A stretch of 34,657 nucleotides of DNA from a virus, in IMG/VR virus record IMGVR_UViG_3300035034_000577, positions 1 to 34,657 of that record; one strand, given 5' to 3'. The notes beneath the pieces were generated by a model that worked only from the letters and a program-made list of their open reading frames with translations, was not told the origin of the DNA and did not search any database. Below are positions 5,536 to 34,657 of this stretch, piece by piece. Numbering within the stretch: the first letter of the stretch is position 1; each line of letters opens with the position of its first letter. Both the position numbers and the translations under genes were made by a program.

Positions 5536-6489
5536 TCAATTTAAATTGTGATAAGAGAAATATCCAATGAACATCTCGTCCCAACTTTGTAGTCCTCCGG
5601 TTGACATTACCGTTGGGTCTGGATTACCCAGATTATATTCGGAGTTATCAAACAACCCCTCTACGATTACCCGAGAACCAGCTGGGATCAACATGGGTTC
5701 GTCCGCTCGATACGTTGGTTGCCATGCAAAATTATAATCCGGAACATTGATAATCTGTTCTTGAGTGCCATCAGGATATATCACCCGAGCTGCCATTGAT
5801 TTCCCTCGATAATGCATATGAGCACGAAAGCCGTATAGCATAATAGCTTCGTCAAACACATGCGTTGCAGCGGATTCATACTCCATTGCACCAGCCGGTA
5901 TTGAAATTTGACTCATTGGCGTCGATACGGAGTACGTATGATATTCATATTTGGGTGGAGTCTGTTCATCTGCGAACCATAAACCAACGCGTGTACTGTC
6001 AGTCGTTTCTTGACCAAATGAGGTATAGTGGATACTCATTCGCAACGCTGAACCGTTTGGAACATAAATGCCGGTATTATCTGGAAACTCGGTTGCATAC
6101 TCCTTACCCGGAGCATACCCCTCCAAAAACTCACGGCGCGGATCATTAACGGTTTCATCCAACATACCCTCACCCGCATCTGGTGTGTCCGCAACTACAT
6201 ACGAAAGTAAATGGTGGAGAACACGTTTATCGCCGGGGATAAACTGAACTGCTTGAATCCATTTGTCTTCGCCGAATTCAAGTGGAATAACCGAGTCGAT
6301 ATAATCGATAACACCCGTAGCGGGTACATTGAAGCTTGGGACGTCCACGATTACGTCCGGAGAAGTTCCGTTATAAAACCACTCATTGGTGATTGCATCA
6401 ACTTCTGTTAGTGGGTCGGTCTGAGCACTAGAATAAAAAGCGGCAACCGCCATTAAACATCCGATGATACCTATAATAATCTTCTTCAT
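5536..6489 (-). CDS. Exported type II copper, ascorbate-dependent monooxygenase-like protein (PHM/DBM fold)
   Basis: A 317-aa protein. Residues 1-22 are a Sec signal peptide (MKK, hydrophobic core, likely cut after Ala22 in SSA-Q), so the product should act in the periplasm or outside. The rest fits the two jelly-roll domains of peptidylglycine hydroxylating monooxygenase. Candidate CuH ligands are His92-His93 (RVLHHLLSYV) and His154 (MSIHYT). Candidate CuM ligands are His224 and His226 (FRAHMHYRGKSM) and Met306 (WDEMFIGYF). The spacings of 61, 70 and 80 residues compare with 64, 70 and 70 in rat PHM. Segments such as YNFAWQPTYR, GLFDNSEYNLGNPDPT and EDKWIQAVQF match the Cu2-monooxygenase regions of bacterial multidomain proteins, but the cytochrome or thioredoxin-like parts are absent. 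The only Cys is in the signal peptide, so the disulfides of animal PHM are missing. The gene begins 15 bases after the portal stop with SD AAGGA, hence portal-coupled late expression. Family assignment is strong; the substrate and any virion role are unknown. Confidence 0.85.
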   Translation of the reverse strand: MKKIIIGIIGCLMAVAAFYSSAQTDPLTEVDAITNEWFYNGTSPDVIVDVPSFNVPATGVIDYIDSVIPLEFGEDKWIQAVQFIPGDKRVLHHLLSYVVADTPDAGEGMLDETVNDPRREFLEGYAPGKEYATEFPDNTGIYVPNGSALRMSIHYTSFGQETTDSTRVGLWFADEQTPPKYEYHTYSVSTPMSQISIPAGAMEYESAATHVFDEAIMLYGFRAHMHYRGKSMAARVIYPDGTQEQIINVPDYNFAWQPTYRADEPMLIPAGSRVIVEGLFDNSEYNLGNPDPTVMSTGGLQSWDEMFIGYFSYHNLN

Positions 6490-26449: not shown

Positions 26450-27729
26450 TGGAAGAAGATGGTAACATTATATTTGAAACGTTTACTGGAAATTTTGACC
26501 CTCAATCTCGTGTTTTTGCGCGGCTTACGGTTGATCAAGAATATTCGCTTGCCTCTGTAATCCCACTAAGAATAACATTATTTGAAAGTTTTGGTGCGTG
26601 GAGTCCGTTAATAACCATCCAGTACATAGACAGTTTGGGGGTTTATACAAATATATCAAAGTTTTCTCCGGGAGCGGTTTTTAATCTGTATATTGGACAT
26701 GAACTGCCCACTTCGATAAAAATCCCATTGAAATTCTATAAATGTGAGTATGGTAATACTGATATAGGAAAATCAGATGCTTCTGCGTTTACTTTACATT
26801 TCATCCATGAAAACTGGCCAAAAATGGCATTGGATCGCCATATAAAATCGTGGTCAGATTCGTCGGTGTCAACGATAGTGTCTGATGTTTCACATAGTAT
26901 GGGGGTTAGTTTACCGTCACCACCCAAGACAAATCTCACTGAAACTATTACAATACAGCCAAATATATCAAACGTCGATTTTTTAGACTGGATATGCGAT
27001 AACAAGAAATCTGATTTTGACGATGGATTTCATTTTTGTGTGAATAAAAAAAATGAGATGATTTTTAATAGTCTATCTGGTTTTATTGACGAGGCTCGAA
27101 GTGACGTGTTGTCTGGAAACATTCCGGTTCTTCGTCTTGAAGGCCCGAGTGATGACAAAGTAACCCGTCAAAATGAGATGAATGCTAATTTTGGGTACCC
27201 AACATACTTCACCAACTATACCGTTAATGAAAGATATGTGAAAGGTCTCATCAGCGGGGCTGGTGGAACGATTTCTCGATACTATGATTGGGATACCGGA
27301 AAGTTTGTCACGAAAGAAATCTCTATCACTGATGTTAAACGGATTCAATACGCAGACTGGACACCCATTAACATTAACCATGCAGGCGGAAAATTTCCGG
27401 TTTATCATGGTAGAGATGACGGACAGTTACGGCGTTCATACGCAACGATATCGAAGGCTATTGAATCTATACCTCCGGTGACAATATATACAGAAGCATC
27501 AATATCCGCGAATGTCGGTGATATTATCGAAATTATCATTCCGACGACTCGATCTGTTCCATATAATATCACACACTCTGGGTTTTATTGTATTTCGGGC
27601 ATTGAATATGAAATGAATCTACAAAGTGGCAAGGGGTTTACTATGGCACTTCGGTTGAGCCGATCCAGTTATGAAGGAAAAGAATTGACTGGCTATGCCA
27701 AAACCAACAGAGGTAAGTTTTCACAATGA
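26449..27729 (+). CDS. Baseplate hub protein, T4 gp27-like
   Basis: A 426-aa protein (T4 gp27 is 391 aa) that probably forms the trimeric hub carrying the spike encoded by the next gene. Evidence is mainly position (immediately before the gp5-like spike, overlapping its ATG by four bases) plus fold-like features: beta-rich N-terminal half, then LDWICDNKKSDFDDGFHFCV and NKKNEMIFNSL, a typical hub segment for reading a ligand-like strand, and a C-terminal beta domain (VGDIIEIIIPTTRSVPYNIT, then SGFYCISGIEYEMN). The ORF extends upstream in frame inside the gp53-like gene, but the ATG at 26449 in a TAATG junction is the natural start. Confidence 0.7.
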   Translation: MEEDGNIIFETFTGNFDPQSRVFARLTVDQEYSLASVIPLRITLFESFGAWSPLITIQYIDSLGVYTNISKFSPGAVFNLYIGHELPTSIKIPLKFYKCEYGNTDIGKSDASAFTLHFIHENWPKMALDRHIKSWSDSSVSTIVSDVSHSMGVSLPSPPKTNLTETITIQPNISNVDFLDWICDNKKSDFDDGFHFCVNKKNEMIFNSLSGFIDEARSDVLSGNIPVLRLEGPSDDKVTRQNEMNANFGYPTYFTNYTVNERYVKGLISGAGGTISRYYDWDTGKFVTKEISITDVKRIQYADWTPININHAGGKFPVYHGRDDGQLRRSYATISKAIESIPPVTIYTEASISANVGDIIEIIIPTTRSVPYNITHSGFYCISGIEYEMNLQSGKGFTMALRLSRSSYEGKELTGYAKTNRGKFSQ

Positions 27730-28436
27730 ATCTATATGGTAATTTTCGAGGGGTGGTCATATCCAATGTTGATCCTTTGCAAGCGGGTCGATGTAAGATA
27801 AATTTTCCTGCTGTTTTTGATGGGCTGGTTGAATCGGATTTACCATGGGCAGAATATGCTGATCCTTTTATGAGTGGACAAGTGGGTTCAGGTGGACATT
27901 TTATTCCAAACATTGGGACGATGGTATGGGGGTTTTTCGAAAATGGAGAAGCAGACAAGCCAATATATTTTGCGGGTGCGTCTGGTAAAGAGTTTGGCCC
28001 AGTTGAAAAGAACACAGGGGAGTATCCAAATAATCGAGTATTCAAAACAAACGCCGGTCATACGATTGAGTTCAATGATACGCCATCGGACGAGTATATC
28101 AAGATAACTCACCCAACTGGAACGTATATGAAGATGAACGCTGACGGCAGTGCGACCGAAGTTATAAAAGGAAACTTCACACGAACAATCGAAGGAGATG
28201 TGTCTGAGACAGTTAATGGTAATGTGTCTGAGGCAGTAACAGGTACATATACAGGGTCTTACGATGGGAATATTACATTAACCTCGGGCGGAACTTGGCA
28301 TGTTAACTCAGCATCTGGGTTCCTTGATTTGACATCAAAACTAGACATCAACGGCATTGTCTTTGAAGATCACGTTCATGAACAGGGTGTTGATAGTAGA
28401 GGTGACACGGAACAAGATACGAAGGTTCCCAAGTAA
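27726..28436 (+). CDS. Baseplate central spike protein, gp5/gpV-like without lysozyme
   Basis: A 236-aa protein. Residues 1-95 form the OB-fold of gp5/gpV: MNLYGNFRGVVISNVDPLQA, GRCKINFPAVF, then GSGGHFIPNIGTMVWGFFEN. Residues about 105-210 have the repeating short strands of a triple beta-helix (GDVSETVNGNVSEAVTGTYT and similar). A C-terminal His-x-His segment (DHVHEQGVDS) is common at spike tips and may bind metal. The lysozyme domain found in the middle of T4 gp5 is absent, so peptidoglycan digestion must come from another protein. It overlaps the hub gene by ATGA. Confidence 0.85.
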   Translation: MNLYGNFRGVVISNVDPLQAGRCKINFPAVFDGLVESDLPWAEYADPFMSGQVGSGGHFIPNIGTMVWGFFENGEADKPIYFAGASGKEFGPVEKNTGEYPNNRVFKTNAGHTIEFNDTPSDEYIKITHPTGTYMKMNADGSATEVIKGNFTRTIEGDVSETVNGNVSEAVTGTYTGSYDGNITLTSGGTWHVNSASGFLDLTSKLDINGIVFEDHVHEQGVDSRGDTEQDTKVPK

Positions 28437-28473: not shown

Positions 28474-28857
28474 ATGGCAAGCGAATATACATACTCAGAC
28501 ATGAGTTCTGGGATGGAAGTATCATCCACCGGAGCGGTCAAGATATTGTATGACGAAGATGTCATTATACAGTCGATTCGAAACATTTTCGCAACGATAT
28601 CAAATGAACGGGTTCGCAACGCAATAGGCTCATCTCTGGTACGGCTGTTATTTACTCCGATGACAAAAGAAGCGGCAGGCCAAATCCGAACATTAGTGCG
28701 ACAGTCGATTGAGCGATATGAACCAAGGGTTAAAATTGAAAAAATAATCATCATTCCGAAATATGATTTGCATTATTATGACATCACGATTGAGATGACC
28801 ATCGCGCAGATAAGCCGCAATGTAACATTCAAAGAAAGAATCAGGACATTTGTATAA
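28474..28857 (+). CDS. 25: Baseplate wedge protein, gp25-like (GPW_gp25)
   Basis: A 127-aa protein (T4 gp25 is 132 aa). Conserved pattern: an N-terminal Asp-rich start, DVIIQSIRNIFATISNERV (helix), the R-x-x-F-x-P-like segment VRLLFTPMTKE, then IRTLVRQSIERYEPRVKIEK with the family's Glu-Pro-Arg motif, followed by beta strands. It forms the central core of the wedge that touches sheath and tube. An in-frame TTG at 28468 is less likely than ATG at 28474. Its stop overlaps the next ATG (TAATG), fitting the gp25-gp6 order of contractile systems. Confidence 0.92.
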   Translation: MASEYTYSDMSSGMEVSSTGAVKILYDEDVIIQSIRNIFATISNERVRNAIGSSLVRLLFTPMTKEAAGQIRTLVRQSIERYEPRVKIEKIIIIPKYDLHYYDITIEMTIAQISRNVTFKERIRTFV

Positions 28858-31370
28858 TGAAAGATTATTTGAACTACGAATACCAAGACCTTGTTGATCG
28901 CGCTCAGGAGACGCTGAAGGACGCTGAAGGCTGGGGTGATGGGTATGCATCTGCACACGGACAAATGCTCATAGAGCTTATGGCAGACATGACTGATGCG
29001 CTTCATTACATGGCAGCGAGACGTTCAGCTGAAAACTTCATGAGTACGTTACGATTGAGATCAACCGCAATCTCACGTGCGTCTGATATGGGGTATCGAT
29101 ATAAGCGAATTTTTGGTAACTCTGGGTACCTTACTGTTTCGCTTGTCAATTCAGCTGGGGCTTCGGTTGCTGCCACTTCGCCAATATCAATACCAAAATT
29201 CACACCATTCAAGTTGGGTGATCGCTCTTTTGTCACTGTTGATGAAATAACCATTGAACAGGGTACAGACAGTGTAACCATATTGGTGAAAGAAGGGACA
29301 ATCGACGTTCAAACGTTAACTGTGCCGCAATCTGGAGTAGTCAGTGTTGAAAATTTTCATGACATTGATCGAAACGGTTTATTTATTGACGCCCCCAGTG
29401 GTGAGTTTATTGATATCGAGTTAAATCCAGACAATAAACAAGCATTGACATTTTTGCGATTCAATGATCGATATTATGACATCAGATATGATTTAAACTC
29501 AATGGATATCATTTTTGGTGATAACCGTTTTGGCGCTCGACCCGCTGGTGATATCACAGTCTCTTTTATCCGAACAAAACTTGAGTCTCCGATCCTTACC
29601 ACCGGACACACATTTGAATACGATGGAGATGGACTATTCGACGATCTTGGTAACCTATATGAATTTCTTTCTGTAACGAATTCGACCATTATTGCTGGCG
29701 GAGAAGCAGAAGAATCTATCGACTCGATAAAGAAAAACGCGCCCCTGTATGTAAGGTCAAACGGAAAAGCTACAATAAACGCAGACTATGTATATTGGAT
29801 ACTTCGATCTGGGATTGGTAACATCCGAGACGCGAAGTCGTTTGGTGAACATGAGCTTCGTACTTATTACCACAACATGAATAATATTTTTCTGACATAT
29901 TTGGCTGAAGACGGCGAAAAGCTTTCTCCGACAGAACACCAAGCGGTTCTTGATTATTTTAAAAATCTAAAAGTAGCTGCACCGCATATTGTGTTGCGTC
30001 CAGCTGAGATTTTGGATATACGTTATGTACTGGATGCAAAAAAATCACCAGAATTGGGTGTGTCTGATGCTGAGTTTTATTCTATACTGAATAAGTTTAT
30101 GAACAACTATTTTAAACTCAAAGAAGGATCAATCGGAAGAACCGTACACTCGTCTGATATAGTAAGTGATCTGTATAAACAGCGATATAATATTGGTGGG
30201 ATTAACCGAGAAGTTGTTGATTTTGTTCGGTTGCAGCTGTTTGGTCATTATGAGTTTTCATACCCACCTCGCGCAACAAAAGCATTTGTTTCATTGGATA
30301 TCAATTATATTCCGGAAGATGGTCAAACGTTTATTCTCATTGTTGGAAACATGGTATGTGAAATACCAGTATACGCAGCCGATTCTAAGACTGAGATTTT
30401 ACTAAGAATGCGTGACCGCATCATGGAAGTCACCCCGTTTAGTGCTACGGTTGATTTAACCGGTGCCGCACTTGATGGTTTTGGTAATCCGATCCCAATC
30501 GAAGTAAACCCGTTGGTTGGTGATAGTATATTGCTTGGTGTAGATACTCCATATTTTTCAAAAGACCAGTTAGTTGGTAACTTTGCGTTGGGGTCAACAA
30601 CCGCATCTGTCATTCGAATTTCGCCTGATATTGAGTTTCAACATTATTATTACTCATCAATCACTGGGCGGCGTCCGCGTATTCCTATTCGCACGGGTAC
30701 TACCATAACGTTCACAGCTCCAACCGATACGGATGTTAACGTGTACCATCGAACAGATATGCTTGACGCGAGTACTGAGACGCTGTATACAACGTTACTC
30801 GCTGGAACGACATACACCGAAACATTGACTACTGTACACTCGGTGCAATTTGAATATGTAAACGACTCAACTCAAGATGTCACTGTAACGATTGTATACC
30901 CATCTACAGAAGGCACAACATTCGGGTTAACCATCGACAACGCTGGCCGTGGTCTGTTTGCCATTCAAACTACATCTGGGGATTTGACCAACGAGGTTAT
31001 TCTAGATTACTCGGTTAAAGTACCAACCGCACCAAAATCAATATTGACCACCCAATCTACAACCGCCATAGTACCCGGATCAGTATCGGTTAGACGAAAA
31101 AACACTAATGCGCTTGTGTTTGGTGACAACGGTAGTGGGTATTTTCTTGATGATTTGGGGTCTCTCGTTACAGGTGGTCGAATCGATTATGCAACCGGTG
31201 AACTGTTTTTACCAGAAAACACACCAGTCGATACACTGTACGTGAGGTATAAACAGGATACCTATGATAATTTTTCAGTTGGAAGTGATATTGCAGTTCG
31301 ACTGATAGAAGCAAAACCATCAATAACGAGTAACGTAGCGTCTTCGTCTAGTTTGCGGGTTGTTCCATAA
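28857..31370 (+). CDS. 6: Baseplate wedge protein, gp6/gpJ-like
   Basis: An 837-aa protein in the Baseplate_J/gp6 family, the ring protein that links wedges. The N-terminus DYLNYEYQDLVDRAQETLKD, then GYASAHGQMLIELMADMTDA and LHYMAARRSAENFMSTLRLR, is diagnostic. The middle beta domain has FTPFKLGDRSFVT, which matches the FxPxG-type linker. The region NADYVYWILRSGIGNIRDAK, then TYLAEDGEKLSPTEHQAVLD, matches the conserved J domain end. The last 350 residues (about 490-837) are additional beta-rich domains with Thr- and Pro-rich linkers, probably decorative. It sits between gp25 and gpI-like genes, the universal order. Confidence 0.88.
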   Translation: MKDYLNYEYQDLVDRAQETLKDAEGWGDGYASAHGQMLIELMADMTDALHYMAARRSAENFMSTLRLRSTAISRASDMGYRYKRIFGNSGYLTVSLVNSAGASVAATSPISIPKFTPFKLGDRSFVTVDEITIEQGTDSVTILVKEGTIDVQTLTVPQSGVVSVENFHDIDRNGLFIDAPSGEFIDIELNPDNKQALTFLRFNDRYYDIRYDLNSMDIIFGDNRFGARPAGDITVSFIRTKLESPILTTGHTFEYDGDGLFDDLGNLYEFLSVTNSTIIAGGEAEESIDSIKKNAPLYVRSNGKATINADYVYWILRSGIGNIRDAKSFGEHELRTYYHNMNNIFLTYLAEDGEKLSPTEHQAVLDYFKNLKVAAPHIVLRPAEILDIRYVLDAKKSPELGVSDAEFYSILNKFMNNYFKLKEGSIGRTVHSSDIVSDLYKQRYNIGGINREVVDFVRLQLFGHYEFSYPPRATKAFVSLDINYIPEDGQTFILIVGNMVCEIPVYAADSKTEILLRMRDRIMEVTPFSATVDLTGAALDGFGNPIPIEVNPLVGDSILLGVDTPYFSKDQLVGNFALGSTTASVIRISPDIEFQHYYYSSITGRRPRIPIRTGTTITFTAPTDTDVNVYHRTDMLDASTETLYTTLLAGTTYTETLTTVHSVQFEYVNDSTQDVTVTIVYPSTEGTTFGLTIDNAGRGLFAIQTTSGDLTNEVILDYSVKVPTAPKSILTTQSTTAIVPGSVSVRRKNTNALVFGDNGSGYFLDDLGSLVTGGRIDYATGELFLPENTPVDTLYVRYKQDTYDNFSVGSDIAVRLIEAKPSITSNVASSSSLRVVP

Positions 31371-32731
31371 TGCCGACGAATAAAGAAATTCTCACTAAGA
31401 ATATACCAAGCTTCCTTAAGAAGTACCCGAGTACGGTATCTTATGTCGAAGCTGCTGGTGAGTTTTTAGATGAAATAACAGAAGCAATAATCAATATTTC
31501 GTATGCCCATAAGTACGACAAAACTGGCCCGAAGTCACTGGATTATGCGCTACAAGACTTTGGGTTTAATCTTCCACCAAACGTGACTGAAGAAACGAAG
31601 AGACAACTTCTTCGAGACGGCGTTCATTTTATTTTGAGATCAGGAACAAATGACGCAATCATTGCTGCATTTCGATTGATCGGGATTTCAGCGCAGGTAC
31701 AAGAAGCATGGGCGATTTCTCCTGATCTAATGTCGAAAGGTTTCATTTGGAACGTTGTTGATGGCGCGGTTACCCGATACAACATAGACGACTCTTCTTA
31801 CCAAGATATGATGTATGGCGACTCTGTTGTTAAAGAAGATGGCGTCTATTTTAAAGGATATCAGTATGACGATTTTCTTAGAGAAACACTTATCGAAGAT
31901 GTTCCGATTCACGGAGAGTATTACGATGAACCCCAAACGGGTGATTATAATGTTGGAAAAACTCCGTATATCGTGGTATTCATCAATGACGCATCAGTAA
32001 ATGTAGTCACCAAAGTAAACGTAGACCCAGACACTGGACAGGAATATACGTATACTGATAATGAAAGATTCAATCTGATAAACGATATCATCGAATATTT
32101 TGTGTTCACTGCAAATAAACCAACTCATATGAGAGTGATAGTTGTTATATCGCCATTCGAAGGGACAGAACTTGATGATACGCTTGGATTATCAGATGGA
32201 GTAGAACCAGTAGATGAGTATACTTTTTTCGGTTATCCGGAAACATATGACGATAGTAGCGTCTCTGATTCTGTAGCAAAAACCTCTACAGTCGCCGTCA
32301 CTTCGTTTGCACTGGGTGATCCAATTTTGATTGGTATGCCGTCTCCGTATGAATCGCAATTTTCTATTATAGATGGCGTGAACGTTGGTATGGTTGGAAT
32401 ACAGAATTTCGCCGAGATTAACTATTCAGATGTCGGTGTTGTGTCAATACCAAACGTTGTGTACTCAAATGGAGATTCATCTGGGGTTACTCATCGCATG
32501 TACTTATATGCCAACTCAACCGTCTCTCTTGCTGCGATTGATGGCTGGGCCTTTACTGTCAAATTTTTTAATCACAAAGACGATATTACCCCAGTATACA
32601 TCGAAAATATTGATGCAAGTGGAACCCCAACTTTCAATTTAGTAAATAGTGGGCAATATCATTGTTTTGTTATCGAGTGGACAAAAGGTACTTCTGATGA
32701 TTTTACAGTCACAGTTACGTATGGCGTATAA
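31370..32731 (+). CDS. Baseplate wedge protein, P2 gpI / T4 gp7-type
   Basis: A 453-aa protein. Residues 1-250 fit the phage tail protein I family: FLKKYPSTVSYVEAAGEFLD, LDYALQDFGFNLPPNVTEET, LRDGVHFILRSGTNDAIIAA, then FRLIGISAQVQEAW and, near 235-255, the ANKPTHMRVIVVIS strand. The remaining 190 residues are beta-rich, with a probable carbohydrate-binding-like or fibre-attachment domain. In contractile tails gpI joins gpJ to the fibre. It starts in a TAATG junction with the J-like gene. Its stop TAA is part of the late promoter at 32727-32734. Confidence 0.75.
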   Translation: MPTNKEILTKNIPSFLKKYPSTVSYVEAAGEFLDEITEAIINISYAHKYDKTGPKSLDYALQDFGFNLPPNVTEETKRQLLRDGVHFILRSGTNDAIIAAFRLIGISAQVQEAWAISPDLMSKGFIWNVVDGAVTRYNIDDSSYQDMMYGDSVVKEDGVYFKGYQYDDFLRETLIEDVPIHGEYYDEPQTGDYNVGKTPYIVVFINDASVNVVTKVNVDPDTGQEYTYTDNERFNLINDIIEYFVFTANKPTHMRVIVVISPFEGTELDDTLGLSDGVEPVDEYTFFGYPETYDDSSVSDSVAKTSTVAVTSFALGDPILIGMPSPYESQFSIIDGVNVGMVGIQNFAEINYSDVGVVSIPNVVYSNGDSSGVTHRMYLYANSTVSLAAIDGWAFTVKFFNHKDDITPVYIENIDASGTPTFNLVNSGQYHCFVIEWTKGTSDDFTVTVTYGV

Positions 32732-32752: not shown

Positions 32753-33274
32753 ATGGCTGTTAATAAAATTAAAGACAAAACGGGACTAAGCGGGCAGTTG
32801 TGTATATATGACACTGATGCGAAGACCGGCGAAATCCTCAATCGAGACGATGATCACAACGTAATCCTCACACAAGCCCCTGAACAAATTTTCAGGGCGA
32901 TGAGTACAAAGGACGTCAATATATACACAGTTAAGACGATTGTGCTTGGTAACGATGTTGGTACCGGTACGGTGGTGGCCCCTCAACCGGCAACGGATGG
33001 TTTAGATGAAACCGATCTTAATGCTGTTTTTGAGATACCGACTGGTGATTTTGCCGTTTCTTACTCAGGAAATACGTGTACATTTGCTGCTACGATTGTT
33101 GGCGAGGATGTGATGATTAATTTTCCCACCCAACCAAACGTTGTGTATACATCTGCCATTCTCATTAACGAAAACGGAAAAGCGATTGCATATCGACGTT
33201 TTAGTGAAGGCAGAACAATTTCGGCAGCAATTAATATCCAGACGTTTTGGACGTTAACCCTTAATATAAATTGA
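32753..33274 (+). CDS. Hypothetical tail or fibre-associated structural protein
   Basis: A 173-aa protein, beta-rich and soluble, starting MAVNKIKDKTGLSGQLCIYD. It contains RAMSTKDVNIYTVKTIVLGN, then a DVGTGTVVAPQPATD loop and ATIVGEDVMINFPTQPNVVY. This composition and the place after baseplate wedge genes and before fibre genes suggest a virion structural protein connecting baseplate and fibres. I do not recognise a family. The SD is AAAGGAT; the promoter is at 32727. Confidence 0.75.
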   Translation: MAVNKIKDKTGLSGQLCIYDTDAKTGEILNRDDDHNVILTQAPEQIFRAMSTKDVNIYTVKTIVLGNDVGTGTVVAPQPATDGLDETDLNAVFEIPTGDFAVSYSGNTCTFAATIVGEDVMINFPTQPNVVYTSAILINENGKAIAYRRFSEGRTISAAINIQTFWTLTLNIN

Positions 33275-33291
33275 AATGAGACCGACTAAAA

Positions 33292-33651
33292 ATGATTAAC
33301 CTCAGTGCTATTCGATATTTAGAAGTAGGCGAAGCTTTTTCGCCTGAAGTCCTTAACCGGCCAATGCAAGATTTGTCTAACGAAATCGCCCAAGGTATTA
33401 ACGACCTGATCAATGGCGGAACGTATGCGTGGGATGTTGGTAATGCACCTTATCCAGCAGGAATTGGTACTGTGCATAATGGTTCGTTTTGGATTTCGAA
33501 ACAGATCACATCACAAGAGCCATCAGATACTGCTACTCACTGGAAACGTGGAGTAAATACTGATAGCAATATCAGTGGTGCTACAATAACAACCGCCGTA
33601 CCTGTTGCGACTACTGGTACACGAAATGGACATGTTTGGTACGTGTATTAA
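33292..33651 (+). CDS. Hypothetical small structural protein
   Basis: A 119-aa protein. Residues 1-40 are helical (YLEVGEAFSPEVLNRPMQDL, then SNEIAQGINDLINGG). The rest is beta-like with a TATHWKRGVNTDS segment and a Thr/Val-rich C-terminus ending in GHVWYVY. No clear SD precedes the ATG. A degenerate TATAAATT octamer at 33265-33272 might be a weak late promoter. It may be an adaptor for the following repeat fibre. No family is recognised. Confidence 0.7.
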   Translation: MINLSAIRYLEVGEAFSPEVLNRPMQDLSNEIAQGINDLINGGTYAWDVGNAPYPAGIGTVHNGSFWISKQITSQEPSDTATHWKRGVNTDSNISGATITTAVPVATTGTRNGHVWYVY

Positions 33652-33654
33652 TAT

Positions 33655-34657
33655 ATGAGCATTCACTTAAACGATAATGGCACACTACGTAAAATAAAAC
33701 CCGCAATTGTGAATCACAACGGAGTTTTGCGTCGTGTGGGCAGAATTTACGTGAATGATGGCGGAGTAATCCGACAAGTTTTTTCCAACGTAGTTCAAAC
33801 AACGGTTTCGGTTGGCGTTAGTTTTAATACGACGACTACATGGAACACGACCGCTCAAACCACGACTACGTTTAACACGACCGCTCAAACCACGACTACG
33901 TTTAACACGACTGCAAACGCAGGGGCAGTCGTTAACACATCAGTTCAAACCACGACTACGGTTAACACAAGTCGGATGACTACTGTTGTGTTTAACACAA
34001 GTCGGATGACTACTGCTACATGGAACACAACCGTCAACACCACAACGATGGTTAACACATCAGTTCAAACCACGACTACTCGTCCTACGACTCGTTTAAC
34101 AACGACTACGTTTAACGCAAGTCGGATGACTACTGCTACATGGAACACAAGTCATACAACAACTGTCTCATATACCACGACATATAATACTAACGTAGAG
34201 ACAACACGGGTAACGCAGACTTTTGCGTCTACGACTTCTCAACGACAAACCGTTAGGTATTCAGATACACCAGTAAACGTTACTCGTTTAACCGCGAAAG
34301 CGTTTAACCGACAGACATATGATAGAGAAACATCTTGGTACACAGCTTCACCCACATCAAGAGTCACAACAGTTGAAGTTGTGTACGAAACGCAACTAAC
34401 TAACATTAATACGTTTGAGCCTACGTATCGCGAGACTACACGGCTTTCATCGAGAACAACAACATACAATACATCTAAACTTACGAGTCAATCACTGTAT
34501 CGAAACACGGTTTTCTACTCAAATGTTCAAACGAGTTACATATCATATCGAGCCGATCCAGTATATTACAATACAACGGTAACGTATAATACGTGGTATA
34601 ATACAACGTATAGTATGCTTACTACAGCGCAGACTTCTCATGTAACAAATGTACAGG
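33655..34657 (+). CDS. Threonine-rich repeat fibre protein, partial
   Basis: Open from ATG at 33655 to the window edge (334 codons, no stop), so the end is missing. Residues 1-45 contain three copies of a short motif: LNDNGTLRKI, VNHNGVLRRV and VNDGGVIRQV, typical of phage fibre N-termini. From codon 63 (33841) the protein is built of ten-residue repeats encoded by 30-bp DNA units: WNTTAQTTTT, FNTTAQTTTT, VNTSVQTTTT, FNTSRMTTAT and others. At least ten fit the consensus aromatic/Val-Asn-Thr-Thr/Ser-x-x-Thr-Thr. After about residue 190 the repeats decay into a Thr/Tyr/Ser-rich tail without Gly or Pro periodicity. It is likely a fibrous virion appendage, folded as a repetitive beta structure. 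Confidence 0.8.
   Translation, partial: MSIHLNDNGTLRKIKPAIVNHNGVLRRVGRIYVNDGGVIRQVFSNVVQTTVSVGVSFNTTTTWNTTAQTTTTFNTTAQTTTTFNTTANAGAVVNTSVQTTTTVNTSRMTTVVFNTSRMTTATWNTTVNTTTMVNTSVQTTTTRPTTRLTTTTFNASRMTTATWNTSHTTTVSYTTTYNTNVETTRVTQTFASTTSQRQTVRYSDTPVNVTRLTAKAFNRQTYDRETSWYTASPTSRVTTVEVVYETQLTNINTFEPTYRETTRLSSRTTTYNTSKLTSQSLYRNTVFYSNVQTSYISYRADPVYYNTTVTYNTWYNTTYSMLTTAQTSHVTNVQ
33841..34200 (+). repeat. Tandem 30-bp coding repeats
   Basis: Twelve consecutive 30-bp units in frame, several nearly identical (for example 33841-33870 and 33871-33900; 33991-34020 and 34111-34140). They encode decapeptides that start with Trp, Phe or Val followed by Asn-Thr, apart from degenerate units at 34081-34110 and 34171-34200. 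Confidence 0.9.

Follow-up and report, generated by a model that had tools for sequence, protein, structure and literature searches.

The window that we analysed is the whole of a 34,657-base virus fragment from IMG/VR. It comes from a T4-like myophage, with a Gp23 capsid protein, Portal_T4, Peptidase_S77, and a gp5-like protein. The sheath is 39% identical to the sheath of the Alishewanella phages Slicko01 and Slickus01, and the gp6-like baseplate wedge is about 35% identical to theirs. The last gene in the baseplate run is a Thr-rich open reading frame (ORF). ORF calling and translation give 334 amino acids from 33655, with no stop through the end of the contig, which cuts the gene (Table 1).

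A Cu2_monoox_C domain (29 bits; the cut-off is 23) and a signal-like N-terminus occur in another protein encoded by the window, which has 317 amino acids. Its gene sits between the portal and prohead genes, which is unusual for a phage. In the nearest isolate relatives, large proteins are encoded downstream of the wedge gene: 1843 amino acids at L002:13570-19101 and 2313 amino acids at L003:7380-14321. These two proteins differ in their N-terminal parts, while their repeat-rich C-terminal parts are nearly the same.

Table 1. Features of the Thr-rich gene and of other genes in the window.
Feature	Position	Strand	Evidence and remarks
Thr-rich gene, probably for a fibre	33655..34656	+	334 codons, open at the 3' end; ORF and translation; last complete codon ends at 34656
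N-terminal domain	33655..33816	+	residues 1-54; three NDxGxLR.(I/V) motifs
Two-face beta repeat arm (putative)	33817..34188	+	residues 55-178; lag-10 test and face rule
120-bp higher-order repeat within the arm	33929..34150	+	TRF, 1.9 copies, 81% matches
Residues 179-334	34189..34656	+	Thr 26%, no Gly, period 10 absent, face rule weak
gp5-like gene, separate from the Thr-rich gene	27726-28436		
Baseplate wedge (gp6-like)	28857..31370	+	phrog_219, E 4.7e-29
Tail_P2_I-like baseplate protein	31370..32731	+	19.3 bits, just under the Pfam cut-off of 20.6
173-aa gene, phrog_5417-like	32753..33274	+	E 0.0039
119-aa gene directly upstream of the Thr-rich gene	33292..33651	+	no match in Pfam and PHROG searches
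Cu2_monoox_C domain protein	5536-6489	-	317 aa

The ten-residue repeat and the two faces of the arm

The first-pass annotation described twelve near-identical, in-frame 30-bp units in a Gly-free repeat that filled 33655-34657. The ten-residue repeat is real: lag-10 identity is 0.496 over residues 54-178, which was reached in 0 of 2000 shuffles. There are 11 full units, however (residues 63-172, or 33841-34170), with ragged edges at residues 53-62 and 173-178. The consensus of the unit is aromatic/Val-Asn-Thr-(Ser/Thr)-x-x-Thr-Thr-x-x. The units are not near-identical, as their mean pairwise DNA identity is 0.57 and just 3 of the 55 pairs of units reach 0.9. Nor does the repeat fill the gene: residues 1-54 form an N-terminal domain of their own, presumably an attachment module, and residues 179-334 have no period of 10 (907 of 2000 shuffles were as high). 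The ORF has 7 Gly, with 6 of them in residues 1-54 and one in the repeat. Thr accounts for 30% of all residues in the ORF, rising to 45% in residues 55-178. Overall, we could confirm the earlier observation in part, and its interpretation is partly supported as well.

The arm seems to have two faces. Of the 1269 spacings between aromatic residues that we counted in 17 orthologues, 1239 are even and 30 are odd (540 vs. 461 after shuffling). In the pattern-selected set described below, the counts are 6677 even and 281 odd, but the selecting pattern itself favours a period of 10 and unrelated proteins were not filtered out of this count, so we rely on the counts from the orthologues. Positions on the same side as the aromatics are 65% Thr and 13% Arg, while Arg is down to 0.3% on the opposite face, which has Thr, Ser, Asn, and Ala. 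We infer that the face with the small residues packs inside. In the window protein, all 37 scored positions within residues 57-178 obey this face rule (0 of 5000 shuffles). The rule is weak in residues 179-334 (21 net of 63; 71 of 5000 shuffles), which might continue the arm in degenerate form or might lead up to a tip.

Relatives of the window protein

We found no direct relatives of the whole window protein by a search for related loci, by tblastn against isolate phages, or in the PDB. The tblastn search yielded no isolate phage with the Thr-rich protein, but its low-complexity filter hides such repeats. In the PDB, the window protein had no match at E = 10 and L042 had none at E = 1, and none of the family members that we tested reached a Pfam or NCBIfam cut-off. 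As far as we tested it, then, the statement that the protein is unlike known fibres holds: the window protein has no sequence match in Pfam, NCBIfam, or the PDB. The one clear PHROG match is to phrog_13729 (unknown function), which matches residues 4-75 (E = 1.2e-7). The profile has 190 positions, and the match spans only the N-terminal domain and the start of the repeat.

A stricter version of the repeat pattern had no matches. A looser, degenerate pattern matched at least 120 IMG/VR stretches, some of them unrelated. Most of the pattern matches L004-L083 are FNTS.STTTT-type proteins. The unrelated Pro/Thr-rich or Gly/Thr-rich matches, which we set aside, include L004, L028, L038, L044, L050, L056, L066, L082, and L083. 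Composition filters removed such proteins before we analysed loops, arm lengths, and split pairs in this pattern-selected set.

The N-terminal domain links the window protein to this family. It is common to seven of the pattern-matched loci (phmmer E = 2.2e-10 to 6.8e-13; L048 and L088 are apparently one protein), and it is 43% identical to the domain in L100 over 60 residues. An alignment of the domain with L100 first led to 129 confirmed loci, and all of the best 80, which we kept, have a matching ORF (74 are complete). With the window's domain first, there were 95 confirmed IMG/VR loci, with up to 54% identity over 50 residues; among the 80 kept, 79 are Thr/Ser/Asn-rich and 74 are complete. 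The two sets of loci overlap heavily, and the second added 12 distinct sequences. A C-terminal cap (FDTEV..WDG) is present in 70 of the 74 complete N-domain loci. When we queried genome contigs with the N-terminal domain, there were 17 pattern matches and none was confirmed. The domain also occurs at L329 on a protein of 1849 amino acids that is not Thr-rich and that, by eye, has RCC1-like motifs. So, the domain alone is no proof of a fold-back fibre, and it may be an exchangeable fibre adaptor.

The context of these genes agrees with the original reading of the protein as a fibre. Orthologues adjoin a tail-fibre gene (phrog_892 in L100), the window's gene follows baseplate genes, and a relative that is split across two genes has a Peptidase_S74 domain in gene 1.

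Central loops, mirrored arms, and alternative explanations

Complete members of the family usually have a loop near the middle of the chain, which we defined as the stretch that is least rich in Thr, Ser, and Asn. Among 53 distinct complete orthologues (742-1621 amino acids), which were chosen by the N-terminal domain only, 45 have the loop at 0.48-0.52 of their length, and the extremes are 0.341 and 0.623. Ten complete Thr-rich sequences are outside this list. In nine of them, the loop is at 0.50-0.525 (two of the nine are the L052 protein, which we had seen earlier), and in the other it is at 0.559. In the pattern-selected set, a clear loop was found in 25 of 58 distinct complete proteins: at 0.49-0.55 in 16, at 0.80-0.89 in seven, and elsewhere in two. 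For 20 pattern-selected proteins that were picked for having a central loop, the (log) lengths of the two arms have a correlation of 0.996. Short members have central domains of roughly 70-90 amino acids, which by eye are Gly-bearing and globular-looking. Two such members are L042 (228 amino acids) and L063 (289 amino acids), and each arm of L042 is the shorter by 30 amino acids.

The seven proteins with the loop at 0.80-0.89 led us to a form in which the arms are encoded by two adjacent genes. The arms are within 5% of each other in length in 11 of the 17 split pairs that are complete at both ends. In L014, gene 1 has a C-terminal domain and then ends in a Peptidase_S74 chaperone (23.5 bits; the cut-off is 22), while gene 1 of L084 is below this cut-off.

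Some split loci carry additional sequences. Intein- or Hint-like sequences lie at the C-terminus of gene 1 at L007:5267-5956 (-) and L071:5873-6652 (+), and in a gene between the arms at L068:2163-3191 (-); all are below the Pfam cut-offs. ORFs that look like methyltransferases lie between the arm genes at L014:5793-6356 (-) and L079:9784-10901 (-), with a weak Pfam hit for L079 only.

Insertions and deletions in the two arms tend to mirror each other about the centre. We compared 19 disjoint pairs of proteins with 0.75-0.97 identity, not all of which are phylogenetically independent. Changes in the lengths of the N-terminal and C-terminal arms were strongly correlated (Spearman 0.81, Pearson 0.98, permutation P = 0.0002). 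Of the 48 indels of at least 4 amino acids in the N-terminal arm, 22 have a partner of the same size and sign at the mirrored position in the C-terminal arm, using a strict midpoint, without loop detection, and leaving out 4% of the length on each side. For example, between L138 and L130, the indels in the N-terminal arm are -22, -22, +32, +12, -12, and +6; past the centre, they are +6, -12, +12, +32, -22, and -22. (The centre itself has two more gaps, both small, of 4 and 5.)

The balance is incomplete. The other 26 of the 48 events in the N-terminal arm have no partner, and at least 4 of the 19 pairs are unbalanced (0/-20, -20/+4, 0/-20, and -54/-1). All five pairs with at least 0.97 identity have uncompensated changes, of 20-40 amino acids, which may be recent single steps (real polymorphism) or assembly errors. 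Similarly, near-identical contigs (L144, L145, and L147; L135 and L136) have a difference of 20 or 30 residues that is confined to one arm, which could be either natural variation or the collapse of repeats during assembly. The first-pass annotation proposed that slippage could vary the copy number and tune the length of the fibre. Relatives do differ in their repeat blocks. At 0.75-0.97 identity, however, most changes in one arm are matched in the other, and free slippage on one side is thus not the kind of change that lasts.

The order of features along the arms is mirrored as well. When we divided the arms into zones by composition, the mirror correlation exceeded the direct correlation in all 17 dereplicated orthologues (mean 0.22 vs. 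-0.23), although against circular shifts the signal is individually striking in only some of them. For the register of the aromatic residues in 53 dereplicated pairs of arms, mirror order scored above direct order in 43, tied in 3, and scored below it in 7, and 25 of the 53 beat all 500 shuffles. (These shuffles permute the spacings, so the comparison of mirror to direct order weighs more than the z score.) Mirror order was favoured in 22 of 23 split pairs and in 21 of 30 hairpins, which came from the set that was filtered for central loops. Among all adjacent pairs of Thr-rich genes, with near-duplicates counted, it was favoured in 33 of 35. Short members are uninformative on this question (8 mirror, 5 ties, and 7 direct among 20 proteins). 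We found no pairing of charges or of Asn across the register that is independent of the decapeptide geometry.

Together, these results favour a fold-back of two antiparallel arms within one chain, but the partners might instead belong to different chains, with the N-terminal arm of one copy paired to the C-terminal arm of a second copy, as a head-to-tail dimer or a higher oligomer. The central segment would then lie in the middle of a rod. This arrangement predicts the same mirror register, and the arms are indeed separate genes in many relatives. We still consider it unlikely, because the globular-looking, Gly-bearing central domains resemble a tip rather than a joint in a rod, and the C-terminal domain and chaperone of the split gene 1 are what one would look for at the distal end of a fibre.

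It is quite improbable that the fibre does not fold back at all and is an ordinary beta-solenoid or triple beta-helix with rungs of ten residues, its central loop and equal arms being incidental. Such a fold would fit with the period of 10 in the window protein and with a low-confidence AlphaFold2 model of L203, in which short strands recur at ten-residue intervals within residues 501-545. However, mirrored indels and mirror register would not be expected from it, and they likewise tell against the new solenoid that the first-pass annotation suggested. Also, the rung is not fixed, since the aromatics are found at spacings of 4, 6, 8, 10, 12, 14, 16, and 22.

It is more doubtful still that the mirrored indels arise from choices in the alignment or from duplication between the arms, instead of from selection on pairing. 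Alignments of repeats are ambiguous, and some proteins (L107) do have direct internal copies. But the same alignments that give 22 mirrored partners give 1 of 48 in direct order and a mean of 0.8 (maximum 6) with random shifts, and copying between arms would yield direct order. Finally, a disordered, mucin-like, glycosylated Thr/Ser linker that varies in length by slippage would account for the Thr/Ser/Asn-rich composition, the low confidence of AlphaFold2 (single-chain mean pLDDT of 36.9 for L063 with 8 sequences, and of 31.2 for L203 with 11 sequences, including the window's), and a GT4-like gene downstream in L007, but the strict parity of the aromatics and the balanced indels point to ordered pairing and leave this explanation with very little probability. 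The low pLDDT values themselves count neither for nor against disorder.

We found no evidence for the glycosylation or ice binding that had been raised for this protein. The GT4-like gene is a lone case, in L007 only. In L052, L100, and L121, the neighbours of the orthologous genes had no Pfam match, and glycosylation was dropped as a candidate.

A putative fold-back fibre and known fibre systems

We propose that the window's gene encodes a receptor-binding phage fibre with a fold-back design, in which two beta arms run antiparallel in locked register and a tip lies at the bend (probability of roughly 0.7). At the level of the family, this reading draws on the common N-terminal domain, the two-face arms, the central loop, the C-terminal cap, the mirrored indels, the mirror register, and the split two-gene form. 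Two of these features are visible in the window: the N-terminal NDxGxLR domain and a two-face arm with even spacing of aromatics. Only the N-terminal domain and the first arm are seen, because the contig ends within the gene; the window protein's own tip, return arm, and cap are predicted.

In the proposed fibre, the N-terminal domain would hold the protein to the virion. A long beta arm would run outward with its side chains in strict alternation, with aromatics, Thr, and Arg on one face and small residues (Ser, Asn, Ala, or Thr) on the other. In the middle of the chain, a short non-repeat tip would turn the chain around and would probably contact the receptor. The second arm, of nearly equal length, would return antiparallel, in locked register, to the small C-terminal cap. 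A gain or loss of repeat blocks in one arm would be offset at the mirrored position of its partner, which would let the length of the fibre change without loss of register. Our guess is that the fibre is a trimer.

With somewhat better than even odds, this fibre belongs to a structural class that is new among viruses: a zipper that is hundreds of residues long, whose arms' indels co-vary across the bend like base pairs in an RNA stem, and which has evolved in a single-chain form and in a form with two adjacent genes. In titles and abstracts, we found no description of such a Thr-rich fold-back fibre (most subscription journals and bioRxiv preprints are outside the scope of this search). The family is common in IMG/VR, with the 120 or more repeat-pattern stretches, some unrelated, and the 129 N-domain loci. 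If we are correct, many unnamed Thr-rich phage proteins would be explained as host-recognition fibres, and the pairing of the arms could be read from sequence alone, where AlphaFold2 fails. This would also give a sequence-only way to locate the tip, where the receptor probably binds, and a natural case of a protein fibre whose length is adjusted in matched steps. The family could serve as a test case for structure predictors, which fail on the members that we tested here.

Several known fibres share some of these features. Fibres with a Peptidase_S74 (endosialidase) chaperone resemble the split relative L014, whose gene 1 ends in that domain, but the domain was not found in the incomplete window ORF, nor in L100. 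Like T4 gp5, the arm would be a long, thin, repetitive beta structure. A passage of PMC3004832 describes the triple beta-helix of gp5 as built from octapeptide units; in contrast, the repeat here has a period of 10, residues 55-178 contain one Gly, and the spacings take several even values. With that single Gly, the arm also lacks the Gly-X-Y repeat of collagen-like fibres.

The tip of T4 gp37 is another point of comparison. T4 gp37 carries His-x-His metal motifs, and there are none in the translation of the window ORF. We also found no sequence homology to solved fibre structures (at the PDB thresholds given above for the window protein and L042). A passage of PMC9659904 describes the gp37 tip as a six-stranded antiparallel beta needle and a head domain with a putative receptor-binding site, in which the chain goes out and comes back. 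Here, antiparallel strands along the fibre are putative, from the mirrored indels in relatives. The family differs in having arms of up to about 800 residues, a bend in the middle of the chain (in the orthologues), and split two-gene forms. The putative fold-back fibre would work like the gp37 needle, but we found no homology between them.
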